A DNA stretch of 64,000 bases from positions 1 through 64,000 of the forward strand of contig NZ_FWXN01000002.1 in NCBI RefSeq assembly GCF_900176385.1, read 5' to 3'. Shown piece after piece: positions 48,277 through 63,639 of the stretch. A program made the position numbers and the translations under genes. Under the pieces are notes generated by a model. The model was not told the DNA's origin. It did not search any database and was given only the letters and a program-made list of their open reading frames with translations. Position 1 is the first letter of the stretch; the number at the start of each line of letters is the position of its first letter. This stretch comes from Janibacter indicus (GTDB taxonomy: Bacteria > Actinomycetota > Actinomycetes > Actinomycetales > Dermatophilaceae).

Positions 48277-49257
48277 TCAGGACTGAGCGAGCACCTCGGC
48301 GAGCACCGAGGCGTCGACATTGCCGCCGCTCGCCACGACGACGACGGTCTGCCCGGCGAAGCGCTCCCGCTGGGCGATGAGCGCGGCCAGCGCCGCGGAG
48401 CCACCGGGCTCGACGACGAGCTTGAGGGTGCGGACCGCCTCACGCATCGCGATCCGCGCCTGGTCGTCGGTGACCTCGAGGCCGGTCACGCCGTGCTGGG
48501 AGAGCGCGGCGAGGGTGTGCTCGCCGACCGTCGGCGAGCCGATGGCGTCGAGGAAGACCGGCACGGCCGGCACCTTCTCGACTCGCCCGGAGGCGAGCGA
48601 CCGCGCCATCTTGGGGTAACCATCACGCTCCACGACGAAGGGGGCTGCCCCCGGATGCGTCTCCCGCACCGCCGTGATGACGCCGGACGAGAGCCCGCCA
48701 CCGCTGCACGGGACGATGACCGCGTCGGGGGAGTGGCCCCCTTCGCGCAGCTGGTCGACGATCTCGAGACCCACGGTGCCCTGACCGGACATCACCCGAG
48801 GGTCGTCGTAGGGGTGCACGAGGGTCAGGCCGCGCTGCTCGACGAGCTCGCGTCCGACGACCTCCCGGTCCTGCGTCGCGGGGTCGTAGAAGACGACCTC
48901 GGCGCCCCACCAGCGGCAGCCGTCGACCTTGATCTGCGGCGCGTCCTGCGGCATGACGATCGTCGCCGTCGAGCCCGTCATCCGTGCCGAGGCCGCGACG
49001 GCCTGGCCGTGGTTGCCGGTGGAAAAGGCGAGGACGCCGGCCGCCCGCTCGGCGTCGGTCAGCGACAGCAGCGTGTTGAGTGCGCCGCGGATCTTGAAGG
49101 AGCCGGTGAGCTGCAGGGCCTCGGCCTTGACGAGCACCGTTGCGCCGCAGAGCTCGTCGAGCATCGGGGAGGAGAGCAGGGGAGTGCGGCGCACCCGGCC
49201 CTCGAGTCGCTCGGCGGCCGCTCTGATCGTCTCGATCCCGAAGTCCATGCGCACCAT
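48277..49257 (-). CDS. PLP-dependent threonine/serine dehydratase-like enzyme
   Basis: A 326-residue fold-type II PLP enzyme. The cofactor lysine is in GSFKIRGA (about 53-60), the substrate loop in STGNHGQAVAASA (about 83-95) and the phosphate-binding Gly loop in PCSGGGLSSG (about 182-191). The last strand is VVVASGGNVDASV. There is no C-terminal ACT domain, so it is the short catabolic type: threonine or serine dehydratase, hydroxyaspartate dehydratase or racemase. Which one cannot be decided from sequence. ATG 49257 and ATG 49248 are both possible. It overlaps the transporter remnant by 10 bases at its stop. Confidence 0.87.
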   Translation of the reverse strand: MVRMDFGIETIRAAAERLEGRVRRTPLLSSPMLDELCGATVLVKAEALQLTGSFKIRGALNTLLSLTDAERAAGVLAFSTGNHGQAVAASARMTGSTATIVMPQDAPQIKVDGCRWWGAEVVFYDPATQDREVVGRELVEQRGLTLVHPYDDPRVMSGQGTVGLEIVDQLREGGHSPDAVIVPCSGGGLSSGVITAVRETHPGAAPFVVERDGYPKMARSLASGRVEKVPAVPVFLDAIGSPTVGEHTLAALSQHGVTGLEVTDDQARIAMREAVRTLKLVVEPGGSAALAALIAQRERFAGQTVVVVASGGNVDASVLAEVLAQS

Positions 49258-52564: not shown

Positions 52565-53151
52565 CCCGTCGCCGACTCGGGGGGCTGCTGCTCCTGCTGG
52601 CGGCTCTGTACTTCGCCGGCGAGGCGTGGGCTCTCGCGGGCTGGCAGGGACGGCCCTACGACCTGACCGTCGACGCGATCAGCGCGCTCGGCGTGCCCTT
52701 CGAGATGCCCGACGGGGCGGTCTCGACTCGGCACGCGGCGATGAACGTGACCTTCATCGGCTCCGGCCTGCGGGCCCTGCTCGCGGGGTGGGCGCTGGCC
52801 CCCTTCGTCCCGCGATGGCGGTGGCTCGTGCTCCCGCTCGTCGCGGTCTACGCGCTCGGGCTGGTCCTCGTCGGCCTCTCGCCCGCCGGCGAGACCGTGC
52901 ACGGGGCCGGCGCCCTCCTGGCCATCGGCGGCGGGTTCGTGCTCCTCGCGGCACTCACCGGCGCGCTGTGGCGCCATCGCGCGCTGGCCGTCTGGACCGT
53001 GGTGTGCACGGTGGTGTGCGGGCTCGGCTGGGTGCTCGCCCTCACCAACGCGGTCGGCTTCGGCACGGCCGAGCGGACGGCCGTCTACGCCGTGGTCGTG
53101 TGGCAGGTCGGCGCCGGCCTGGCCCTGCTCCTCGCCCGCGGTCGGGACTAG
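52561..53151 (+). CDS. DUF998 family membrane protein
   Basis: A 196-residue protein with about six hydrophobic helices, starting RRRLGGLLLLLAALYFAGEAW. The loop YDLTVDAISALGVPF (about 32-46), with a conserved Asp and Ser, and the GLSPAGETVHGAGALLAIGGG segment are typical of DUF998. The function is unknown. GTG 52561 overlaps the stop of the preceding gene. It is the last gene of the lipase operon and overlaps the convergent LysR gene by four bases. Confidence 0.85.
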   Translation: MTRRRLGGLLLLLAALYFAGEAWALAGWQGRPYDLTVDAISALGVPFEMPDGAVSTRHAAMNVTFIGSGLRALLAGWALAPFVPRWRWLVLPLVAVYALGLVLVGLSPAGETVHGAGALLAIGGGFVLLAALTGALWRHRALAVWTVVCTVVCGLGWVLALTNAVGFGTAERTAVYAVVVWQVGAGLALLLARGRD

Positions 53152-54089
53152 CCCCCGGGGGCGAAGGGGGGAGCTGGCGGTCCCGCCGCCAGCCCCTGCT
53201 CCGCGGCCGCCGTGCGCACCGCCTCGACGAAGAGGTCGATGGAAGGGCGCGGTGACGTCGTCGCCCGGTGCGCGATCGAGACGGTCCGCAGCACCGGCTC
53301 GTCGAGGGGGACGACATCGACCCCCGGCGGCAGCAACGTCAGGCCGAGGTCGGAGACGAGGGTGACGCCGAGGCCGCCGGCGATCATCGCCAAAGCGGTG
53401 AACTGCTCCTCGACCGTGTGTGCGATGCGCGGCTCGAAGCCGCGCTCGTGGCACCACACGCGCACCGCCCGGCCGAAGTGCGACCGGGGCCCGGCGAGGA
53501 TCCACGGGAAGTCCGCGAGGTCGTGCAGACCCACGGTCTCGCCGACGACCGAGCCCTCGGGCACGGCGGCGTGCAGCCGCTCGACGGCGACGACCGAGCG
53601 CTGGAGGGCCGGGTCGGGGTCGATCGTGTGGCTCGAGTAGTCGATGACGAAGGACATGTCGAGCAGCCCGTCACGGACGGCGTCGGCCGTCTCCTCGGGC
53701 GCGAGCTCGCTCGTGCGCACCTCGATGCCGGGGTGGTCGAGGTGCAGCGCCGACAGCGCGCGAGGCAGCAGGCCGGAGGCGACCGAGGCCCACACGCCGA
53801 CGCTCAGGCGCGCGGTGATGCCCGCCTGGGCCTGCTCGATCGCGGCGGTGGCGCGCTCGACCGAGCCGAGGATCTCCTCGGCGTGGTCGGACAGGAGCAG
53901 GCCGAGCTCGGTGAGCTGGACGCGGCGGCCGTGGCGCTCGATGAGCTTGACGCCGACCTCGCGCTCGAGCTGGGCGAGCTGCTGGGAGACGCCCGACGGG
54001 CTGTAGTGCAGGGCCTGGGCGGCAGCGGTCACCGTGCCGCGCCGGTGGAGCTCGCGCAGCATCTGCAGGCGTCGCAGGGACAACTCCAT
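53148..54089 (-). CDS. LysR family transcriptional regulator
   Basis: A 313-residue LysR protein. The winged helix is LRRLQMLRELHRRGTVTAAAQALHYSPSGVSQQLAQLE (about 5-42), followed by the linker helix and a periplasmic-binding-like effector domain to residue 300. It is divergent from the Glu/Leu/Phe/Val dehydrogenase gene, and the intergenic region contains GGGGGTGCA inverted repeats. It therefore probably activates that gene when its ligand, perhaps an amino acid, is present. ATG 54089 is the canonical start. Confidence 0.92.
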   Translation of the reverse strand: MELSLRRLQMLRELHRRGTVTAAAQALHYSPSGVSQQLAQLEREVGVKLIERHGRRVQLTELGLLLSDHAEEILGSVERATAAIEQAQAGITARLSVGVWASVASGLLPRALSALHLDHPGIEVRTSELAPEETADAVRDGLLDMSFVIDYSSHTIDPDPALQRSVVAVERLHAAVPEGSVVGETVGLHDLADFPWILAGPRSHFGRAVRVWCHERGFEPRIAHTVEEQFTALAMIAGGLGVTLVSDLGLTLLPPGVDVVPLDEPVLRTVSIAHRATTSPRPSIDLFVEAVRTAAAEQGLAAGPPAPPFAPGG

Positions 54090-54223: not shown

Positions 54224-54246
54224 TTTTCAGATTGGCGGTCATCACC

Positions 54247-55452
54247 ATGACGGCGACCCACACCACCAACCCGGCCCACGACTTCGTCGACCGCGAGCCC
54301 GCCCACCAGATCACCTGGGTCGACCCGGTCACCGGTGCCCACGGCTACCTCGTCGTCCACACCCTCGTCGGGGGCATCGCCACCGGCGGCACCCGCATGC
54401 GGCCCGGCTGCACGATCAGCGAGGTCGGGGACCTGGCCCGGGGCATGGCCACCAAGACGGCGGCCTTCGGCCTGCCCGTCGGCGGGGCGAAGGGGGGAGT
54501 GGACTTCGACCCGAAGGACCCGCGGGCCTTCGGCGTCCTCACGCGCTTCTTCACCGAGATGCGTCCGTGGCTCGACGGCCGGTGGGTCACCGCCGAGGAC
54601 CTCGGGGTGACCCAGCAGCTCATCGACGACGTCTTCGCCGAGGTGGGCCTCTCGCAGTCCTTCCACGCGGCCATCTCGCGCTCGCCGCAGCCCGAGGAGA
54701 CCCTCGCGCGCGTGCAGGCCGGCCTCGAGGTCATGACCGACGACGGGTACCCGCTCGGTGACGTCATCGGCGGCTACGGCGTCGCCGAGGCCTGCCTGGG
54801 TGCGGCCGAGGGCTTCGGCTGGGCGATCCCGGAGACGACGATCGCGATCCAGGGCGTCGGCACCATGGGTGGCGGCGCGGCGTGGTACCTCCACGAGGCC
54901 GGCGCGCGGGTGACGGCGGTCGCCGACGCCCGCGGCACGCTCTGCGACCCGGCGGGCCTCGACGTCCCCGCGCTGCTCGACCTGCGCGACGAGTACGGCG
55001 AGATCGACCGGACCCGGGTGCCGGCCCACGTGCAGCAGCTGCCGCGCGAGGCGATCGTCGGCATCACTGCCGACATCTTCGTCCCGGCGGCGGTCTCCTA
55101 CGCGATCCGCGAGGACAACGTGGACCAGGTGGCGGCGGGGGTCGTCGTCGAGGCGGCCAATGCCGCCACGACGTGGGGCGCCGAGGACGCGCTCGTCGCG
55201 CGTGGTGTCGTCGTCGTGCCCGACTTCATCGCCAACGCCGGTGCCGCCGCGTGGGCGTGGTGGCTGCTGCAGGGGCAGGTCGGCTGTGACCCGCAGGATT
55301 CCTTCGACCGGCTCTCGGCGGAGATGCGGGCCAAGGTCGCCGTGCTCGCCGAGCGGTGGACCTGCGACCGGATCCCCATGCGGCAGAGCGGGTTTGCCCT
55401 CGCGTCGAGCAACCTGCACGCGCTCGAGGGGGCGCAGATCGTCATCCCCTGA
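54247..55452 (+). CDS. Glu/Leu/Phe/Val dehydrogenase family amino acid dehydrogenase
   Basis: A 401-residue NAD(P)-dependent amino acid dehydrogenase. The N-terminal substrate domain has GGTRMRPG (about 46-53) and the key lysine in PVGGAKGGVDFDP (about 78-90). The Rossmann part has IQGVGTMGGGAAWYL (about 203-217), and the C-terminal NTGGV-like region is replaced by VVVEAANAATT. It interconverts an amino acid and its 2-oxo acid. Substrate preference (Glu, Leu, Phe or Val) is not certain. The gene is activated or repressed by the divergent LysR. ATG 54247 lacks a clear ribosome binding site, so a leaderless start is possible. Confidence 0.88.
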   Translation: MTATHTTNPAHDFVDREPAHQITWVDPVTGAHGYLVVHTLVGGIATGGTRMRPGCTISEVGDLARGMATKTAAFGLPVGGAKGGVDFDPKDPRAFGVLTRFFTEMRPWLDGRWVTAEDLGVTQQLIDDVFAEVGLSQSFHAAISRSPQPEETLARVQAGLEVMTDDGYPLGDVIGGYGVAEACLGAAEGFGWAIPETTIAIQGVGTMGGGAAWYLHEAGARVTAVADARGTLCDPAGLDVPALLDLRDEYGEIDRTRVPAHVQQLPREAIVGITADIFVPAAVSYAIREDNVDQVAAGVVVEAANAATTWGAEDALVARGVVVVPDFIANAGAAAWAWWLLQGQVGCDPQDSFDRLSAEMRAKVAVLAERWTCDRIPMRQSGFALASSNLHALEGAQIVIP

Positions 55453-55582: not shown

Positions 55583-56260
55583 TCAAGGTCGTGCGGCCTC
55601 GCGCTTGTCGACGAGCCGGCTGACGGCATCGTCGAGGTGGGCCTGGAGGGCAGCCTTGGCCTTCGCAGGGGTGGCCTCGAGGATCGCCCCGCGCAGCTCC
55701 TCGTGCTCGTGGACCTGGGTCTCCAGGTCGCCGTAGGTCGTGCGCAGCTCGCCCAGGCACATGCGGGTCTCGACGAGCAGGGTGCGCATCGCGCGGATGA
55801 GGCGGGGGCTGCCCGAGGCCTCGACGAGCACCTCGTGGAAGTGCTGGTCCGCGTCGGAGACGGCGGGACCGTCCCCCTTCGCCGCGGCACGACGCATCCG
55901 GCGCAGGACGTCGTCGAGCTCGTCAGCCGTCTCCTCCCGCCGCGCTCCGTCGAGGACGACCTCGAGCGCGCCGCGCTCGATGACCGAGCGGGTGCGGTAG
56001 ACGTCGAGCACGTCCTCGAGCGTCAGCTCGGTGACGAAGACGCCACGGTTGGTGATCGCGTGGAGCAGTCCCTCGGAGACCAGTCGCTGCATCGCCTCGC
56101 GCAGCGGGCCCCGCGAGACCTCGAATCGCCGCGCCAGGTCCGCCTCGCCGAGCTGCTCGCCCGGCTCGAGACGCCCGGCCATGATCGCGTCGCGCAGCTC
56201 GTCGGCGATGTACTCGACCGTCGACCGGCGCGGGTTGGGGCTGAGCTCACTGACGGGCAT
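55583..56260 (-). CDS. GntR/FCD family transcriptional repressor
   Basis: A 225-residue FadR-subfamily regulator. The winged helix spans about 10-75 with EYIADELRDAIMAGRLEPGEQLGEADLARRFEVSRGPLREAM, and the FCD ligand domain follows. The FCD metal-site histidines are in DADQHFHEVL (about 140-149) and HEHEELRGAIL. ATG 56260 overlaps the upstream racemase-like gene by 14 bases, so it is the last gene of a three-gene operon. The palindrome AGATTGT-TG-ACAATCT in that operon's promoter, and the same site near 62095, are its probable operators, giving autoregulation and control of the whole catabolic cluster. Confidence 0.9.
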   Translation of the reverse strand: MPVSELSPNPRRSTVEYIADELRDAIMAGRLEPGEQLGEADLARRFEVSRGPLREAMQRLVSEGLLHAITNRGVFVTELTLEDVLDVYRTRSVIERGALEVVLDGARREETADELDDVLRRMRRAAAKGDGPAVSDADQHFHEVLVEASGSPRLIRAMRTLLVETRMCLGELRTTYGDLETQVHEHEELRGAILEATPAKAKAALQAHLDDAVSRLVDKREAARP

Positions 56261-57011
56261 GGTCCTGCCTTCGTGGGGGGAGGCGTCGGGCGAAGAGGGC
56301 GCCGAGGTCCGGCGTCGTCGGCGTCGTCCCCGCGAGCCGCAGCGCCTGCCAGATCGTCACCTGGTTGGCGGTGAGGACCGGCTTGCCGAGGCGGGCCTCG
56401 AGCTCGGGGACCACCGCGAGGGTACGCATGGCGGTGTCGGGGACGAGGAGCGTCTCGGCAGCGGGGTGGTCGCGGGCGAGCGCCAGCTCGACGACCTGCT
56501 CGGGGGTGAGGTGGCCGACCTCGGCGGCGGTGTCGATGCCGGCGCTGCCCATCGCGACGACCTCGACGCCGGCGGCCGCGAGGTAGTCGACGAAGAGGCG
56601 GGCCACGTCGTCGGGATAGCTCGCCGCCACGGCGACCCGGGTCAGGCCGAGGTGGGCGAGGGCGTCGACAAAGGCGGCGCTCGTGCTCGACGCGGGCACC
56701 CCTGCGGCAGAGGCGAGCTGGTCGATCTGGTCGCGCGCTCCCTCCGGCCCGTAGACGAAGCTGCCTGACGTGCACGCCCACAGGACCGACTGCGGGCGGT
56801 GCTCAGCGAGCCGCGCGGCGCCCTCGGCCAGGCGGTCCGGGCGCCCGAGGTCGAGCAGCTCGGGGACGGCGTGCAGGTCGGTGCCGTAGACGTGGACGAC
56901 GGGCAGGCGCACGCCGAGCAGGTCTGCGGCCCAGGGGTACTCGTCCTCGGCCGCGTGGTCGGGGTAGATGATGCCGGCCGTCGTCGGTGTGGTCGTGGCG
57001 GGTGTGCTCAT
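56247..57011 (-). CDS. Asp/Glu racemase-superfamily protein (maleate isomerase / arylmalonate decarboxylase-like), copy 2
   Basis: A 254-residue protein of the Asp/Glu/hydantoin racemase fold. The first active cysteine is in LWACTSGSFVYG (about 77-88), but the position of the second, usually in an SCTN-type loop, is VPDTAMRT, so Cys is replaced by Asp. A single-cysteine form cannot be a standard racemase; decarboxylase or isomerase chemistry, or loss of function, is likely. The TANQVTIWQALRL segment near the end is conserved in the family. ATG 57011 overlaps the preceding paralogue's stop (ATGA). It is co-transcribed with that paralogue and the GntR repressor. Confidence 0.87.
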   Translation of the reverse strand: MSTPATTTPTTAGIIYPDHAAEDEYPWAADLLGVRLPVVHVYGTDLHAVPELLDLGRPDRLAEGAARLAEHRPQSVLWACTSGSFVYGPEGARDQIDQLASAAGVPASSTSAAFVDALAHLGLTRVAVAASYPDDVARLFVDYLAAAGVEVVAMGSAGIDTAAEVGHLTPEQVVELALARDHPAAETLLVPDTAMRTLAVVPELEARLGKPVLTANQVTIWQALRLAGTTPTTPDLGALFARRLPPRRQDHARQ

Positions 57012-57754
57012 GAGCCGAAGACCTCCCTCAGCCACCTGCCGGGCCCCATCATCGGTAGGCCCATCCGCGCCAGGCAGGCCCACACCGTCAGCTGGTTGGC
57101 GGTGAGCACCGGCTTGCCGAGCTCGCGCTCGAGTGGGTCGATGATGTCGTAGGTCGGCAGGTTGGTGCACGAGACGAAGATCGCCTCGGCCGCCGGGTCG
57201 TCGGCAGCCTCGACGAGCGCCGCGACGGTGCGGTAGTTGACCCGCCAGATGCCGCCGGCGAGACCCAGGTGCTGCTGGGTGACGACCTCGACGTCGAGCT
57301 CGCCGAGGAAGTCGACGAGCCGGTCGGTCAGCGGCTGGTCGTAGGGCGTGATGACCGAGATGCGTTGCAGCCCAAGGGTGGTCACCGCCTCCGCGAGAGC
57401 TCCGGAGGAGGTCAGCGCCTCGGGGGCGCCGGCCTCGCGGATCGCGTCGACGAGCGCGGTCTCGCCCTCACGACCGTGGATGAAGCTGCCCGAGCTGCAC
57501 AGGTAGGCGACGACCTCGGGCTCGACCCCGAGCACGTCACGGGTGGCGTCCTGCAGGGCGCTCACCGACGAGACCCGCTGCGCCATCTCCAGGCTCACGG
57601 GCACCGGCTCGAAGGGGGTGCGCGCGAGGTGGAAGCTGACCTCCAACGGTGCCCACCGCCACAGCTCTCGCTCGAGGGCGAGGTCGAAGGGGGCGATGAC
57701 CCCGATGCCGCGCTGGGCCAGCGACCCGTCGAGCTCCGCGCCGGTCAGGACCAC
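57008..57754 (-). CDS. Asp/Glu racemase-superfamily protein (maleate cis-trans isomerase-like), copy 1
   Basis: A 248-residue paralogue with both active-site cysteines: AYLCSSGSFIHG (about 81-92) and IFVSCTNLPTYD (about 184-195). The conserved TANQLTVWACLARMG segment is near the C-terminus. Maleate isomerase of this fold converts maleate to fumarate; arylmalonate decarboxylases and EutA of ectoine breakdown are relatives. It is the first gene of the GntR-controlled operon. I start at GTG 57754, which follows GAAGGGAGG; the longer frame would run through the operator. Confidence 0.88.
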   Translation of the reverse strand: MVLTGAELDGSLAQRGIGVIAPFDLALERELWRWAPLEVSFHLARTPFEPVPVSLEMAQRVSSVSALQDATRDVLGVEPEVVAYLCSSGSFIHGREGETALVDAIREAGAPEALTSSGALAEAVTTLGLQRISVITPYDQPLTDRLVDFLGELDVEVVTQQHLGLAGGIWRVNYRTVAALVEAADDPAAEAIFVSCTNLPTYDIIDPLERELGKPVLTANQLTVWACLARMGLPMMGPGRWLREVFGS

Positions 57755-57784
57755 GTGCGGACCTCCCTTCGCACCGGGATTGCC

Positions 57785-57825
57785 AGATTGTTGACAATCT
57801 AAGAACCCGCTCATACGTTGTCAAC
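57785..57825. promoter_or_regulatory. divergent GntR operator/promoter region
   Basis: AGATTGTTGACAATCT (57785-57800) is a 16-bp palindrome with a two-base centre, and GTTGTCAAC (57817-57825) follows immediately before the ATG at 57826. The core ATTGTTGACAAT recurs at 62095-62106. Such TTGT..ACAA palindromes are typical of FadR-type regulators, so the GntR at 55583 should control both transcription units here. Confidence 0.85.
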
Positions 57826-58815
57826 ATGTCTCGCCAGCCCGTCGTCGTCGTGCTCCACGACGGCGAGATGCCCAGTGAGAGCTCGATGGCGCCGGTCGTG
57901 GAGCGGGCGCGCGAGGTGCGCTACGCCACCGCCGCCGAGCTGCCCGAGGCGATCGCCGGGGCCGACGTCCTCTTCGCCTACGACTTCTTCTCCAGCGCGA
58001 TCCCCGACGCCTGGCCCGCCGCCGACGCGCTCGAGTGGATCCATGTCGCCTCGACCGGTGTCGACGCGATCCTCTCGCCCGAGCTGCGCGCGAGTGACGT
58101 CGTGCTCACCAACTCGCGCGGCGTCTTCGACGAGGCGATCGCCGAGTACGTGCTCGGGCAGGTGCTGAGCTTCGCCAAGGACCTGCCCCGCTCGTGGGAG
58201 CTACAGCAGGCGCGCCGCTGGGTGCACCGCGAGTCCGAGCGCGTCGCCGGCACGAGCGCCCTCGTCATCGGCACCGGCCAGATCGGCCGGGCCATCGCCC
58301 GGCTCCTGCGTGCCGCCGGCATCCGGGTCTCCGGCTCCGGGCGGCGGGCGCGCACCGACGACCCCGACTTCGGCACGGTCACGGCCCAGGAGGACCTGCA
58401 CGAGGCCCTCGCGGGCGCCGACTGGGTCGTGTGCATCGCCCCGCTCACCGAGGCCACCCGCGGCATGCTCGACGGCGCCGCCTTCCGCGCGATGGCCGAC
58501 CACGCCCGCCTGATCAACGTCGGCCGCGGCGAGTCGGTCGTCACCGACGACCTCGTCACCGCCCTGCGCGAGGGGGCCATCGCCGGGGCCGCCCTCGACG
58601 TCCTCGACACCGAGCCGCTGCCCGACGACCACCCCCTGTGGGACCTGCCCGACGTGCGCATCACCCCGCACAACTCGGGCGACTTCGTCGGGTGGCGTGA
58701 CGCGCTCGTGCGCGTCTTCACCGACAACTTCGCCCGCTGGGTCGACGAGGAGCCGCTGCGCGACGTCGTCGACACCTCGCTGGGCTACGTACCGACCGAC
58801 GGGAGCGCCCGATGA
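57826..58815 (+). CDS. D-2-hydroxyacid dehydrogenase
   Basis: A 329-residue NAD-binding oxidoreductase of the D-isomer 2-hydroxyacid family. The nucleotide motif is VIGTGQIGRAIARLL (about 146-160), followed by the catalytic triad region: Arg in INVGRGE (about 230), Glu in DVLDTEPLP (about 265) and His in ITPHNSG (about 284). It reduces a 2-oxo acid to the D-2-hydroxy acid or the reverse. The gene starts directly after the GntR operator and overlaps the amidase start (ATGA), so both are co-regulated with the racemase-like genes. The substrate is unknown. Confidence 0.9.
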   Translation: MSRQPVVVVLHDGEMPSESSMAPVVERAREVRYATAAELPEAIAGADVLFAYDFFSSAIPDAWPAADALEWIHVASTGVDAILSPELRASDVVLTNSRGVFDEAIAEYVLGQVLSFAKDLPRSWELQQARRWVHRESERVAGTSALVIGTGQIGRAIARLLRAAGIRVSGSGRRARTDDPDFGTVTAQEDLHEALAGADWVVCIAPLTEATRGMLDGAAFRAMADHARLINVGRGESVVTDDLVTALREGAIAGAALDVLDTEPLPDDHPLWDLPDVRITPHNSGDFVGWRDALVRVFTDNFARWVDEEPLRDVVDTSLGYVPTDGSAR

Positions 58816-60182
58816 CCCCCACCGAGATGACCGCCGTCGAGCTCGTCGCCGCCTACGGCGCCAAGGAGCTCTCGCCCGTCGAGGCGACCGAGGCGGTCCT
58901 GGCCCGGATCGACGAGGTCGACGGCGAGATCAACGCGATGTGCCTCGTCGACCGGGAGAGCGCCCTGGCGCAGGCCCGCGCGTCGGAGGCCCGGTGGCAG
59001 GCCGGCGCCCCCCAGGGGCTGCTCGACGGGGTCCCCACCTCGATGAAGGACATCTTCCTCACCAAGGGGTGGCCCACCCTTCGCGGCTCGAAGTCGATCG
59101 ACCCCGACCAGACCTGGGACGTCGACGCCCCCGTCACCGCGCGGCTGCGCGAGGACGGCATGGTCTTCGTCGGCAAGAACACCACCCCCGAGATCGCCTG
59201 GAAGGGCGTCACCGACTCGCCCCTCACCGGCGTGACCCGCAACCCCCTCGACACCCGGATGACCGCAGGGGGGTCCTCCGGTGGTGCCGCCGCGATCGTC
59301 GCCGCCGGGATGGGCCCCGTCGCCGTCGGGACCGACGCCGGGGGCAGCATCCGCATCCCCGCCTCCTTCTGCGGGATCGTCGGCTTCAAGCCGACCCACG
59401 GGCGGGTGCCGATGTTCCCCGCCAGCCCCTTCGGGCCGCTCGCCCACGCGGGCCCGATGACGCGCACCGTCGAGGACGCGGCGCTGCTCATGGACATCAT
59501 CTCGCTGCCCGACCACCGCGACCCGACGGCGCTCGCACCGCCGCGCGCGACCTTCCGCGGTGAGCTCGCCCGCGACCTCACCGGGCTGCACGTCGCCTAC
59601 TCGCGAGACCTCGGGTGGGTCGACGTCGACCCGGAGGTCGCCGCGACCGTCGACGCCGCGGTGGCCAAGGTCGACGCCGCCGGGTTGCACGTCACCGCGA
59701 CCGACCCGGGCTTCGACGACCCCTTCGACGCCTTCGAGCTGCTGTGGGGCGCCAGTGCGGCGACGCTGCTGCGGACGATGCCGGGCGCCCGCGACACGAT
59801 CGACCCCGAGCTCGGCCGGGCCTGGGACCTGGGCGAGTCGGTGAGCGGCGTCGACGTCTTCGAGGCGCGTGCCGTCGCCGCACGGCTCGGCATCACGATG
59901 GGTGCCTTCCACGAGCAGCACAACCTGCTCATCACGCCGACGATGCCGATCCCCGCCTTCGAGGCCGGCCACGACGTCCCCCCGGGCAGCGGCATGACGC
60001 ACTGGGCCCAGTGGACGCCCTTCACCTACCCCTTCAACATGACCCAGCAGCCGGCGATCAGCATCCCGTGCGGCACGACCTCGGCCGGCCTGCCGGTCGG
60101 CCTGCAGATCATCGGTCCGCGGCACTCCGACGACCTCGTCCTCGCCGCCGCGCGCTGGGTCGAGTCGGTCCTCGCCGGCTGA
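58812..60182 (+). CDS. amidase signature family enzyme
   Basis: A 456-residue amidase. The catalytic Ser-cisSer-Lys triad is visible: Lys in TSMKDIF (about 78), the cis-Ser in MTAGGSSGGAAA (about 154-158) and the nucleophilic Ser in VGTDAGGSIRIPASF (about 176-190). Family members hydrolyse amides to acid and ammonia. Its length is normal. In the cluster it could supply a carboxylic acid or free amine from an amide substrate. ATG 58812 overlaps the dehydrogenase stop. A repeat hairpin between this gene and the convergent DUF3830 gene can stop the transcript. Confidence 0.9.
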   Translation: MTPTEMTAVELVAAYGAKELSPVEATEAVLARIDEVDGEINAMCLVDRESALAQARASEARWQAGAPQGLLDGVPTSMKDIFLTKGWPTLRGSKSIDPDQTWDVDAPVTARLREDGMVFVGKNTTPEIAWKGVTDSPLTGVTRNPLDTRMTAGGSSGGAAAIVAAGMGPVAVGTDAGGSIRIPASFCGIVGFKPTHGRVPMFPASPFGPLAHAGPMTRTVEDAALLMDIISLPDHRDPTALAPPRATFRGELARDLTGLHVAYSRDLGWVDVDPEVAATVDAAVAKVDAAGLHVTATDPGFDDPFDAFELLWGASAATLLRTMPGARDTIDPELGRAWDLGESVSGVDVFEARAVAARLGITMGAFHEQHNLLITPTMPIPAFEAGHDVPPGSGMTHWAQWTPFTYPFNMTQQPAISIPCGTTSAGLPVGLQIIGPRHSDDLVLAAARWVESVLAG

Positions 60183-60217
60183 CCCGGCCCGGCCCACGGC
60201 GGCTGCGGTCGTCACCC

Positions 60218-60298
60218 GTTTCTCGGGTCACCCGAGAAACCTCCCCTTCGCAAGGGTTTGAAACTCTTGTCAAGGACGGGTTTCTCGGGTGACCCGAT
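60218..60298. repeat. dispersed composite hairpin repeat, copy B
   Basis: GTTTCTCGGGTCACCCGAGAAAC (60218-60240) is a perfect 11-bp-arm palindrome. It is followed by CTCCCCTTCGCAAGGGTTTG, whose pairing partner has decayed, and by a second TTTCTCGGGTGACCCGA. It matches copies A and C in order and position between convergent genes. Confidence 0.8.
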
Positions 60299-60324
60299 AT
60301 TCGTGAGGTCTGGGCGCGACGCCC

Positions 60325-60819
60325 TCAGGCCCGGGCGAAGACCAGCCGTTCGCCCTCGAAGCCTCGCCGCCACAGGTCGGTGCAGGCCGCTGCCATCTCG
60401 GCCAGGCCTTCCTCGATCGTCGCGAAGACCGACCCGGGTACCCAGCCGACGTCGCCGTTGATGAGCAGGTTGTTGCGGCCGTAGAAGATCGCCAGGTCGG
60501 TTGCCCCCTGGGCCGCGTGCGCCTCGGACCCGGGCTCGTAGCCGTAGGCCGGGTTGCCGATCTCCCAGGGCTCGAAGTCGAAGAGGCAAACGTCGCCGGG
60601 GATCGGGGTGACCGTGGGATTCTCGCGGTGCGGGGCGGCCGCGATCCGTGGCAGCAGTGTGTAGACCTCGTTGCGCGCGTACTTCGCGTGGAAGGCGTCA
60701 CCGCCCGCGGGCAGCGCATCCCACACCGCGGCGCAGGTCAGGGGCGCCTCGTCGTCGAGCAGCCGCGCCCGGCACACCACGCCGCGCGACTCGAGGGCGA
60801 TCGTGATGTACCGGGCCAT
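60325..60819 (-). CDS. DUF3830 family cyclophilin-like protein
   Basis: A 164-residue protein of DUF3830, a cyclophilin-like barrel. Typical segments are TCAAVWDALPAGGDAFHAKYARNEVYTLLP (about 28-57), GDVCLFDFEPWEIG and DLAIFYGRNNLLINGDVGWVPG. Catalysis is unproven; members are found beside amidases, racemase-fold proteins and dehydrogenases, as here. ATG 60819 is three bases after the aminotransferase stop, so the two are co-transcribed from the operator at 62095. Confidence 0.9.
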   Translation of the reverse strand: MARYITIALESRGVVCRARLLDDEAPLTCAAVWDALPAGGDAFHAKYARNEVYTLLPRIAAAPHRENPTVTPIPGDVCLFDFEPWEIGNPAYGYEPGSEAHAAQGATDLAIFYGRNNLLINGDVGWVPGSVFATIEEGLAEMAAACTDLWRRGFEGERLVFARA

Positions 60820-60822
60820 GGC

Positions 60823-62064
60823 TCAGACCTCCGCCAGGACCTTGCCCCAGATCTCCAGGGCCTCGTCGACCTGCTCGGCGGTGACGACGAGCGGCGGGAT
60901 CATCCGCACGACGTTCATGTGGGCGCCGCAGGTGAGCAGCAGCAGGCCCTTCTTGGCGGCCAGCTGCTGGGCCGCCTGGGCGCGGGCGGTGTCGGGCGTG
61001 CCGTCGGCGGCGGTGAACTCGCTGCCGACGAGCAGGCCGAGTCCGCGCACGTCGCCGATCCCGTCGACGGCGGCGGCCTTCGCACCCTCGAGCAGCTGGG
61101 TGCCGCGCTCGGCGGAGTTGGCGACCAAGCCCTCCTCCTCGATGACCTCGAGGGTGGCGACGGCCGCGGCGCACGCGACGGCATTGCCGCCGTAGGTGCC
61201 ACCCTGCGAGCCCGGCCACGCCTTGCTCATCAGCTCCTCGCTCGCCGCGATGCCGGAGATCGGGAAGCCGGAGGCGATCCCCTTCGCCAGGGTGATGATG
61301 TCGGGCTGCACGTCGAAGTGCTCGTGACCGAACATCTTGCCGGTGCGGCCGAAGCCGGTCTGGACCTCGTCCATGACGAGGAGGATCCCGTGCCTGTCGG
61401 CCCGCTCGCGCAGCCCCTGGAAGAAGGCGGTGTTGCCGGGGATGTAGCCCCCTTCGCCGAGGACCGGCTCGACGATGAAGGCGGCGGTCTCCTGCGGTGA
61501 GGTGAGCGTCGCGAGGATGTAGTCGAGCTCCTTGAGGGCGAAGGCGGTGGCCTCCTCCTCGCTCCAGCCGTAGCGGTAGGCGGTGGGGAAGGGGGCGACG
61601 TGCACCCCGCCCATGAGCGGGGAGAAGCCGGCCGAGAAGCGGGTGCCGGAGGTCGTCATCGTCGCCGTCGCGACGGTGCGGCCGTGGAAGCCGCCGTGGA
61701 AGACGATGACATTGGGCCGGCCGGTCGCCTGGCGGGAGAGGCGGAGGGAGGCCTCGAGCGCCTCGCTGCCGGAGTTGGCGAAGAAGAGGCTGTCCAGGTG
61801 CGAAGGGAGGACCCCCTGCAGTTTGTCGACGAGGGCGAGCAGCGGCTGGTGCATGACCGTCGTGTACTGGCCGTGGATGAGCTTGCCGACCTGCTCCTGC
61901 GCGGCGGCGACGACCTTGGGGTGGCAGTGCCCGGTGCTCACGACGCCGATGCCGGCGGTGAAGTCGAGGTGGCGGTTGCCGTCGACGTCGAAGATCTCCG
62001 AGCCGAGGGCGTGGTCGATCGTCACGGGGGTGGCCTGCTTCAGCAGGGGGGACAGCGCTGTCAT
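60823..62064 (-). CDS. class III PLP aminotransferase (4-aminobutyrate aminotransferase-like)
   Basis: A 413-residue omega-aminotransferase. The cofactor lysine is in ITLAKGIASGFPISG (about 250-264), substrate and PLP contacts in FFANSGSEALEASLRLSRQATG (about 94-115), and DEVQTGFGRTG (about 222-232) before the lysine. It moves the amino group of a terminal-amine substrate such as 4-aminobutyrate or beta-alanine to 2-oxoglutarate or pyruvate, giving a semialdehyde. The divergent aldehyde dehydrogenase would oxidise that product. ATG 62064 has GGAGGTC. The GntR-type palindrome lies 30 bases upstream. Confidence 0.92.
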   Translation of the reverse strand: MTALSPLLKQATPVTIDHALGSEIFDVDGNRHLDFTAGIGVVSTGHCHPKVVAAAQEQVGKLIHGQYTTVMHQPLLALVDKLQGVLPSHLDSLFFANSGSEALEASLRLSRQATGRPNVIVFHGGFHGRTVATATMTTSGTRFSAGFSPLMGGVHVAPFPTAYRYGWSEEEATAFALKELDYILATLTSPQETAAFIVEPVLGEGGYIPGNTAFFQGLRERADRHGILLVMDEVQTGFGRTGKMFGHEHFDVQPDIITLAKGIASGFPISGIAASEELMSKAWPGSQGGTYGGNAVACAAAVATLEVIEEEGLVANSAERGTQLLEGAKAAAVDGIGDVRGLGLLVGSEFTAADGTPDTARAQAAQQLAAKKGLLLLTCGAHMNVVRMIPPLVVTAEQVDEALEIWGKVLAEV

Positions 62065-62094
62065 CGGGACCTCCGAGGTCGGGTTGTTCGTCTG

Positions 62095-62106
62095 ATTGTT
62101 GACAAT
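62095..62106. promoter_or_regulatory. second GntR operator ATTGTTGACAAT
   Basis: The same 12-bp core as in 57787-57798 lies between the divergent aminotransferase and aldehyde dehydrogenase genes. It links these two units to the GntR/FCD repressor encoded at 55583. Confidence 0.85.
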
Positions 62107-62154
62107 ACGTCTACGGTTGGGGAGACGGCAAGGACGCTGACGAAGGAGCCTTCC

Positions 62155-63639
62155 ATGACGATTACGGACACGCCAGAGGTCACCCGCGAGCAGGAGCGCG
62201 AGGCCATCGCCTCGGTGCCCACCGGCCTCTTCATCGGGGGCGAGTGGCGCACGACCCGCGCGACGATGCCGGTCGACGACCCGTCGACCGGCGAGCACCT
62301 CGTCGAGGTCGCCGACGCCGACCCCGACGAGGCCGCCGCGGCCCTTGACGCCGCCGTCGCGGCGCAGGCGGAGTGGGCGCAGGTGCCGCCCCGCGAGCGC
62401 AGCGAGATCCTCACCCGCGCCCGTGAGCTCATGCTCGCCGACGTCGACCGGCTCGCCCTGATCATGACCCTCGAGATGGGCAAGCCCCTGGCCGAGGCGA
62501 AGGGGGAGGTGGCCTACGCCGCCGAGTTCTTCCGCTGGTTCGCGGAGGAGGCCGTGCGCATCGACGGCGGCTTCATGACCGCGCCGGCGGGCGGCTCGCG
62601 CTTCCTCGTCGCCAAGCAGCCGGTCGGCCCGTGCATCCTCATCACCCCGTGGAACTTCCCCATGGCGATGGGCACCCGCAAGATCGGGCCGGCCATCGCC
62701 GCCGGGTGCACGTCGGTCATCAAGCCGGCGGCCGAGACCCCGCTGTCGACCCTCGCGCTCGCCGACATCCTCGTGCAGGCGGGCCTGCCCGCGGGCGTGG
62801 TCAACGTCGTGACGACGAGCAAGAGCGACGACGTCATGCGCCCGATGATCCTTGACCCGCGCTCGCGCAAGATCTCCTTCACCGGGTCGACGCCGGTCGG
62901 CAAGCACCTGCTCGAGCTCGCCGCGAAGACCGTCATGCGCACGTCGATGGAGCTCGGCGGCAATGCCCCCTTCCTCGTCTTCGACGACGCCGACCTCGAC
63001 GTCGCCGTCGAGGGGGCCATGGCGGCGAAGATGCGCAACATCGGCCAGGCCTGCACCGCGGCCAACCGGATCCTCGTGCAGCGTCCGGTCGCTGAGGAGT
63101 TCGCCCGTCGCCTGGGGGAGCGGATGGGCGCGCTGCCGATGGGCCGCGGTGTCGAGGACGGCGTCGTCGTCGGCCCGCTCGTCAACCAGAAGGCGGTCGA
63201 CAAGGTCGACGAGCTCGTCCGCGATGCGCTCGACCGCGGGGCGACCGCGCAGCTCGGCGGCGCCCCCGCGGACCGTGACGGCTACTTCTACCCGGCGACC
63301 GTGCTCACCGGCGTGCCGGCGGAGGCCGAGATGGGCAGCGCCGAGATCTTCGGCCCGGTCGCGGCGATCACCGAGTTCGACACCGAGGAGGAGGCGATCG
63401 CACTGGCCAACGACACCCCCTTCGGCCTGATCTCCTATGTCTTCACGCAGGGCCTCGACCGCGGGCTGCGGGTGAGCGAGGCGCTCGAGGCCGGCATGGT
63501 CGGACTGAACCAGGGCGTCGTCTCCAACCCGGCCGCCCCCTTCGGTGGGATCAAGGAGTCCGGCGTCGGCCGCGAGGGCGGCTTCACCGGCATCGACGAG
63601 TTCCTCGAGACGAAGTACATCGGCGTGCGGATGGCCTGA
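62155..63639 (+). CDS. NAD(P)-dependent succinate-semialdehyde dehydrogenase-like enzyme
   Basis: A 494-residue aldehyde dehydrogenase of the GabD type. Coenzyme binding is in GPCILITPWNFPMAMGTRKIGPA (about 160-182) and SFTGSTPVGKHL. The general-base Glu is in MELGGNAPF (about 264-272), and the nucleophilic Cys in NIGQACTAANRIL (about 298-310). The family motif FGGIKESGVGREGG is near the end. It oxidises a semialdehyde to the acid, which enters the TCA cycle if succinate. I use ATG 62155, which follows CGAAGGAG. Its promoter carries the GntR operator shared with the aminotransferase. Confidence 0.93.
   Translation: MTITDTPEVTREQEREAIASVPTGLFIGGEWRTTRATMPVDDPSTGEHLVEVADADPDEAAAALDAAVAAQAEWAQVPPRERSEILTRARELMLADVDRLALIMTLEMGKPLAEAKGEVAYAAEFFRWFAEEAVRIDGGFMTAPAGGSRFLVAKQPVGPCILITPWNFPMAMGTRKIGPAIAAGCTSVIKPAAETPLSTLALADILVQAGLPAGVVNVVTTSKSDDVMRPMILDPRSRKISFTGSTPVGKHLLELAAKTVMRTSMELGGNAPFLVFDDADLDVAVEGAMAAKMRNIGQACTAANRILVQRPVAEEFARRLGERMGALPMGRGVEDGVVVGPLVNQKAVDKVDELVRDALDRGATAQLGGAPADRDGYFYPATVLTGVPAEAEMGSAEIFGPVAAITEFDTEEEAIALANDTPFGLISYVFTQGLDRGLRVSEALEAGMVGLNQGVVSNPAAPFGGIKESGVGREGGFTGIDEFLETKYIGVRMA

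Follow-up and report, generated by a model that had tools for sequence, protein, structure and literature searches.

The gene cluster described here lies at positions 55583-63639 of a 64-kb window, by which we mean the whole stretch of DNA analysed, positions 1 to 64,000 of contig NZ_FWXN01000002.1 in the 3.42-Mb genome of Janibacter indicus. It comprises eight genes in four units: amd1-amd2-gntR and at3-DUF3830 are read leftward, hadh-amidase and aldh rightward. From its gene content, its conservation and the transporters linked to it in other genomes, we propose that the locus is probably a GntR/FCD-controlled regulon for the uptake and breakdown of ectoine and/or 5-hydroxyectoine, mostly without the hydrolase EutD/DoeA. 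The gene families that a sequence-only reading of this DNA had named were all confirmed by Pfam and NCBIfam profile scores. The features are listed below, ending with two neighbouring genes; other loci, genomes and families are designated L, G and f.

55583-56260, minus strand: gntR, regulator of the GntR/FCD type, encoded last in the amd1-amd2-gntR unit (PF00392 71.6 bits, PF07729 79.8 bits)
56247-57011, minus strand: amd2, AMDase/EutA family, first cysteine only (PF17645 105.3 bits; EutA model 120.4 bits, cut-off 318)
57008-57754, minus strand: amd1, AMDase/EutA family, both cysteines (PF17645 88.6 bits; EutA model 100.4 bits, cut-off 318)
57787-57798: operator O1, exact copy of ATTGTTGACAAT, in the amd1/hadh divergent promoter
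57818-57827: third operator-like sequence, TTGTCAACAT, differing from the core at one position; it overlaps the start codon of hadh
57826-58815, plus strand: hadh, D-2-hydroxyacid dehydrogenase (PF02826 166.5 bits)
58812-60182, plus strand: amidase, amidase-signature enzyme (PF01425 341 bits; PRK06169 729.8 bits, cut-off 506)
60325-60819, minus strand: DUF3830, long form, 164 aa (PF12903 205.5 bits, cut-off 26; relative of 3kop, E 6.2e-63)
60823-62064, minus strand: at3, class-III aminotransferase (PF00202 384.7 bits; PRK08117 457.9 bits, cut-off 574)
62095-62106: operator O2, exact copy of ATTGTTGACAAT, in the at3/aldh divergent promoter
62155-63639, plus strand: aldh, semialdehyde dehydrogenase resembling succinate-semialdehyde dehydrogenase (SSADH) (PF00171 525.5 bits; SSADH model 564.9 bits, cut-off 646.35)
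54232-55452, plus strand: aaDH, ELFV-family amino-acid dehydrogenase, a probable associate outside the cluster span (PF00208 124.5 bits)
53148-54089, minus strand: LysR regulator (Pfam) divergent from aaDH, a possible associate

Both the GntR helix-turn-helix and the FCD domain of the gntR product score above the Pfam cut-offs. Neighbouring genes overlap by 4 bases (amd1/amd2 and hadh/amidase) or 14 bases (amd2/gntR) and are therefore probably organised in operons. The start codon of amd1 is probably the GTG at 57754, which lies behind GGGAGG, and not the ATG at 57814 of the listed open reading frame; the O1 palindrome is thus intergenic. The at3 gene starts at ATG 62064. PDB sequence searches with amidase, at3, hadh and aaDH returned broad relatives only.

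AMD1 and AMD2 share their fold family and cysteine positions with arylmalonate decarboxylase (AMDase) and maleate isomerase, and maleate isomerases are among the best solved relatives of AMD1. In the alignments wild-type AMDase has the second cysteine only, whereas AMD2 has only the first and AMD1 has both. Both AMD1 cysteines are kept in all homologues (103/103 and 102/102), while Cys80 of AMD2 is found in 98/102 and Asp192 in 100/101. The R/E/H residues of HADH, which we take to be catalytic, are kept in 102/102 homologues. In the amidase the presumed catalytic residues are one Lys (102/103 homologues) and two Ser (both in 103/103).

Conservation of the cluster and of its operator

The sequence-only reading had placed the same palindrome in both divergent promoters, and ATTGTTGACAAT is indeed exact at O1 and O2. 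These are the only two exact copies in the genome; the backwards-read control gave none. With up to two mismatches, the window holds 6 matches against 0.15 expected, and none of 100 shuffles reaches 6; of the six, four are the two palindromes, each counted once per strand, and two are inexact sites at other positions. The TTGTCAACAT site, 30 bp from O1 (30-31 in relatives), is present in 13/13 same-genus loci.

The same combination of genes and operator is found in Janibacter, Georgenia, Occultella, Nocardia, Rhodococcus, Hoyosella, Amycolatopsis and further actinobacterial families. DUF3830 is found in 14 of the 16 genomes of the genus, the source genome included. All eight genes stand together in 11/13 same-genus loci, the other two (L032 and L036) being cut by a stretch or contig end, and in L022, which comes from another family of the same taxonomic order. 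The aaDH and LysR genes are kept in those 11 loci and both occur in L090 and L164; aaDH is a conserved neighbour in Georgenia, in Yaniella and in five distant loci (L074-L077, L079).

In a sample of 396 genomes of the phylum, 43 carry DUF3830 and 19 the long form found in this cluster. The phylum-level long-form loci number 17 (L065-L081, excluding the window locus and L021). At 15 of them amd1, amd2, hadh, amidase and DUF3830 lie within 20 kb; the exceptions are L079, a 5-kb contig, and L080, which has no hadh. A gntR orthologue is present at 12/17. A further set of named loci consists of the best 80 of at least 577 and hence favours close relatives; counts use the 59 that reach about 10 kb each way. 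The six-gene core is found at 48 of these 59 long named loci, all eight genes at 42, at least one exact operator at 59 and at least two at 49. A tartrate-dehydrogenase-family gene lies within 200 bp of aldh at 38/59, mainly in Nocardia. The proposed check, a search of DUF3830 neighbourhoods for the same gene set, thus found the units to be co-conserved.

The operator follows the genes across whole genomes. Scans with ATTGTYRACAAT found 45 sites in 17/18 genomes of a first set (backwards control 0/18) and 59 sites in 20/20 named genomes (backwards control 1/20). By our own placement, 40/45 and 46/59 of these sites lie at the cluster or at its split parts. Among the 12 gntR-bearing loci of L065-L081, 11 have an exact operator and L077 a one-mismatch site; the f21 loci L066, L068, L071 and L072 have no gntR, and the exact operator was found in none of the four. 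In four named genomes the core is separated from the DUF3830 part, yet each of the two has the operator: Rhodococcus jostii (L104/L190), R. koreensis (L108/L193), Rhodococcus sp. JCM 9791 (L130/L199) and Amycolatopsis sp. MtRt-6 (L162/L202). In G034 (L183) two sites mark a ProP-like carrier gene, at3 and aldh. In G106 (L188) the operator marks aldh; next comes a tartrate-dehydrogenase-type gene (L188:4508-5572; 490.5 bits, family cut-off 470.4) and then a glycerate kinase gene.

Away from the cluster lie 5 of the 45 sites of the first set, four of them in L185 and the fifth in L187, and 13 of the 59 sites of the named set (one each in L189, L191 and L194-L198; two each in L192, L200 and L201). 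We take them as belonging to other regulators or unrecognised regulon members, or as chance matches. As read from the translations, the operator stands upstream of a large FAD-dependent-oxidase-like gene in three Rhodococcus (L191:7301, L194:7070, L195:6686), and the sites in L196, L200 and L201 adjoin an amidohydrolase-like gene. The co-conservation of the units and the genome-wide tracking of the genes by the operator, even at split loci, support the earlier view of a single GntR-controlled catabolic regulon, in which GntR is the putative binder of ATTGTTGACAAT.

Linked transporters and a candidate ectoine pathway

The lead to the substrate comes from transporters. In genome G040 the DUF3830 locus (L021) has no amidase, amd1, amd2 or gntR, and the operator scan located these genes about 85 kb away (L184). 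There, gntR, amd1, amd2 and amidase stand with a ProP-like carrier gene, an aldh homologue and ehuABCD, and one of the three operators lies upstream of ehuB. All four transporter proteins exceed their NCBIfam cut-offs (EhuA 375.6 bits, cut-off 345.4; EhuB 267.4, 190.9; EhuC 263.7, 196.95; EhuD 264, 205.2). A single locus of Nocardia pseudovaccinii (L142) unites EhuABCD, TtuC, aldh, at3, DUF3830, amidase, hadh, amd1, amd2 and gntR. In relatives, the Ehu importer stands beside the catabolic genes at L066, L068, L071, L072, L080, L142 and L184, a ProP-like carrier at L065, L067, L069, L074, L183 and L184, and a BCCT carrier at L075-L077. In family f21, probably the streptomycetes, EhuABCD adjoins AMD2 in 10/10 EhuB-bearing genomes, with HADH in 8, and four f21 EhuABCD loci have amd1, amd2, hadh, amidase and DUF3830. 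The known ectoine importers named in the cited part of the review PMC5924519 are ABC, ProP-type, BCCT and TRAP carriers. The 64-kb window holds no ectoine importer gene, and the L183 ProP-like carrier, used as query, has no match in the source genome at E 1e-30. Three BCCT genes of that genome are importer candidates; none is near an exact operator, because both exact genomic copies lie in the cluster.

EhuB is above cut-off in 32/396 genomes of the sample: 12 of the 19 with long DUF3830 and 20 of the other 377 (Fisher p 3e-10, a rough guide only because the genomes are related). Two of the 12 are marginal (G000, 191.6 bits; G129, 191.2 bits). EutD is above cut-off in 6/396, with four more matches at 550-613 bits; the 19 long-DUF3830 genomes and these 10 EutD genomes (at least 550 bits) do not overlap, weaker EutD-like matches occurring in two long-form genomes (G040, 416 bits; G153, 173 bits). 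Of the EhuB loci, 13/32 adjoin the core or belong to the same regulon, 7/32 lie within 3 kb of EutD, and none does both; 16 loci plus L066, L068, L071, L072, L080 and L184 were read and the rest judged from coordinates. The existence of EutD-type loci suggests that the model for EhuB does recognise genuine ectoine clusters in the phylum. One of them, L240, contains EhuABCD, EutD, an M20 gene and, as read from the translations, EutB-like and EutC-like genes. In the source genome the best match to EutD/DoeA (TIGR02993) scores 23.2 bits (cut-off 613), and the L240 EutC-like protein, a label given by reading, has no match in the window or in L020. A EutB-like, threonine-dehydratase-like gene, 36% identical to that of L240, lies in the window at 48283-49227 on the minus strand, about 6 kb left of gntR.

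We take E21, F24, Y60, F80 and R85 of Sinorhizobium EhuB to be ligand residues, although a paper search gave no confirmation; with a constant offset of one, the 2q88 chain has E, F, Y, F and R at the five positions. All 23 proteins compared retain E and R. The three other positions are all aromatic in 13/14 core-linked proteins, the exception being L230 with Ala, and likewise in L240, which is linked to EutD; the third of these positions is Ser or Ala in 5/8 unlinked proteins (L231 from the source genome, with Ser, and L232, L233, L234 and L236).

In the sections cited of PMC5924519, PMC3187862 and PMC13188858, canonical breakdown starts with hydrolysis (EutD/DoeA) and deacetylation (EutE/DoeB) and ends with transamination (Atf/DoeD) and oxidation (Ssd/DoeC), with EutABC proposed to act on the hydroxylated form, 5-hydroxyectoine. 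Canonical routes also include a transaminase and a dehydrogenase of the GabD type; EutA occurs in some of them (PMC5924519, PMC5320631, PMC3187862, as cited in part). The Halomonas elongata doeABCD and Sinorhizobium meliloti ehuABCD-eutABCDE clusters resemble the present regulon in carrier families and, at the level of broad enzyme families, in transaminase and semialdehyde dehydrogenase, and the latter also in its AMDase-like EutA and GntR-superfamily regulator (same parts of PMC5924519, PMC3187862 and PMC5320631). Unlike the known clusters, the present core has neither EutB nor EutC and its genome no EutD/DoeA above cut-off; its regulator is of the FCD type, not the MocR-type EnuR; and it adds an amidase, a D-2-hydroxyacid dehydrogenase and DUF3830, with two EutA-like proteins.

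In the pathway that we propose, GntR would bind ATTGTYRACAAT and repress the genes until a pathway intermediate appears. DUF3830 and the amidase would jointly accomplish ring opening of the cyclic amidine and deacetylation, giving (3-hydroxy-)2,4-diaminobutyrate; the ring-opening enzyme is the least certain step of the scheme. The EutA-like pair AMD1/AMD2 would invert or isomerise a stereocentre, probably one in the hydroxylated form. At3, the aminotransferase, would take the terminal amine and aldh would yield (3-hydroxy-)aspartate, whose second nitrogen may be removed by the amino-acid dehydrogenase or another transaminase. HADH, with the tartrate-dehydrogenase-type enzyme in Nocardia, would then channel a hydroxylated four-carbon acid to glycerate or the tricarboxylic acid cycle. 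The last two canonical steps would suit At3 and aldh, and deacetylation would suit the amidase; At3 and aldh belong to the same broad families as Atf/DoeD and Ssd/DoeC, the models used being not specific for DoeC or DoeD. HADH and the tartrate-dehydrogenase-type gene suggest a hydroxylated four-carbon acid, so that 5-hydroxyectoine is favoured. The course envisaged by the sequence-only reading, from an amino acid through a semialdehyde to an acid of central metabolism, fits these genes. Its statement that the ectoine route shares only one or two families with the cluster is probably wrong, given EhuABCD, the ProP-like and BCCT carriers, the EutA-like pair, the DoeA-like M24 enzyme of three relatives and the Atf/Ssd-type enzymes.

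Weighing the alternatives

Several observations argue against an ectoine regulon. Twelve of the 32 EhuB loci adjoin neither the core nor EutD (8 read, 4 judged by coordinates). The EhuB-like protein of the source genome (L231) barely passes the cut-off (191.6 against 190.9 bits), is encoded elsewhere without an operator and is one of those with Ser at the third ligand position, while the unlinked L235, L238 and L239 (3/8) have the full aromatic set. In NCBIfam both AMD1 and AMD2 match EutA best, yet their scores are far below its cut-off, and the core contains no EutB- or EutC-like gene. DUF3830 and a DoeA-like M24 enzyme, below family cut-offs, occur together at L021, L023 and L074, and DUF3830 is therefore not simply a substitute for DoeA. 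The aaDH gene is found at only 3/59 long named loci, and no ectABC genes were found at any cluster locus searched. Six f21 EhuABCD loci (L225-L230) have neither DUF3830 nor amidase, AMD2 and HADH being present in four and AMD2 alone in two; they represent either a decaying pathway whose importer is retained or a smaller pathway. Finally, the conservation counts come from related genomes, which are not independent trials. On the biosynthetic side, the source organism encodes, at L203:7940-10233, an EctC (176.1 bits, cut-off 27) with adjoining EctB- and EctA-like genes and may therefore also make ectoine.

The regulon might instead serve another solute taken up by the same carriers, such as a betaine, a compound resembling carnitine or a derivative of 4-amino-3-hydroxybutyrate, in which case at3 and aldh would lead via malate semialdehyde to malate, and the route would end with a tartrate/D-malate-type dehydrogenase. 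At3 and aldh do resemble γ-aminobutyrate transaminases and SSADH, betaine-carrier models also recognise the BCCT and ProP-like carriers, and the tartrate-dehydrogenase-family gene is as close to aldh as described above. We nevertheless regard this reading as rather unlikely, with EhuABCD in the regulon or beside the core in the 13 EhuB genomes already counted, with the presumed EhuB ligand residues retained, and with an amidase and EutA-like proteins that would suit an N-acetylated diamine better than a betaine. Allantoin- or hydantoin-type chemistry on a ureide- or hydantoin-like ring, carried out by DUF3830, the amidase and the racemase-fold proteins, seems less probable still. It would agree with the short DUF3830 genes that adjoin urate and allantoin genes (see below) and with the kinship of the AMDase fold to hydantoin racemases (PF01177 scores 26.7 bits against a cut-off of 31). 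However, the carriers linked to the cluster belong to the Ehu, ProP-like and BCCT types, and there is no uricase, allantoinase or carbamoylase among the named core and linked genes, the long-form flanks not having been scanned wholesale for them. It is very improbable, in our view, that separate pathways merely share an operator and that the link to EhuABCD is incidental osmoprotection: the six f21 loci with only one or two core genes and the off-cluster sites of the named genomes (13/59) would suit such an arrangement, but the core is intact at 15/17 phylum-level and 48/59 long named loci and the operator is retained at the split parts. An ectoine and/or 5-hydroxyectoine regulon thus remains the reading that we prefer.

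DUF3830 and the significance of the regulon

The solved relative of DUF3830, 3kop, is an uncharacterised protein released in 2009. In fold comparisons, a predicted DUF3830 model matched 3kop (Z 17.7) better than the Pictet-Spenglerases McbB and KslB (Z 14.3-14.8) and cyclophilins (Z up to 11.7). The mean pLDDT of the model is 67.4, with residues 100-128 under 50, and the fold matches are therefore supporting evidence only; sequence identity to KslB and McbB is 17-21%, and a shared fold shows no function. DUF3830 had no match in a protein query against plasmids, nor in a search of 5.39 million open-access papers.

At L205-L223, L082 and L083, the short form regularly stands beside urate-to-allantoate genes, sometimes directly after allantoate amidohydrolase. 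A profile scan of 77 hand-picked neighbours from 20 loci (L084, L210 and L224 being read but excluded) gave matches to uricase (9), 5-hydroxyisourate hydrolase (6), OHCU decarboxylase (6) and Urate_ox_N (2), as well as to allantoinase (10) and allantoate-amidohydrolase (13) models. From this context the short form is a candidate for an unassigned ureide step. Separately, three tandem DUF3830 genes at L084 (9333-10811) have genes for an ABC importer and for an amidohydrolase-like protein nearby. Since ureides and ectoine both contain N-C-N units, DUF3830 could be a new family of cofactor-free N-C-N enzymes with a Pictet-Spenglerase-like cyclophilin fold, the long form opening the amidine of ectoine or 5-hydroxyectoine independently of EutD and the short form performing a related ureide step in the urate/allantoin pathway. 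We offer this as a speculative and doubtful proposal; the six f21 EhuABCD loci without DUF3830 argue against a simple ring-opening role.

No paper describing this cluster was among the matches listed in a search of titles and abstract starts in the open-access literature, which is not proof that none exists. A 2026 study (PMC13188858) proposes putative ectoine clusters for the Gram-positive Actinomycetota and Bacillota that likewise have an aldehyde dehydrogenase, an amidohydrolase and Ehu, BCCT or MFS carriers. Those clusters were found via EutD and EutB, whereas most carriers of the present regulon have no EutD and its core no EutB; overlap with figure 7 of the study is possible.

Ectoines are widespread bacterial stress protectants. 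The regulon occurs in many soil actinobacteria, where it probably serves to use ectoine-like protectants as food. If the proposal is true, a second ectoine route would be present in the 14/16 genomes of the genus and in many Nocardia, Rhodococcus and Amycolatopsis, where a survey based on EutD would miss it, and it would point to a function for DUF3830.

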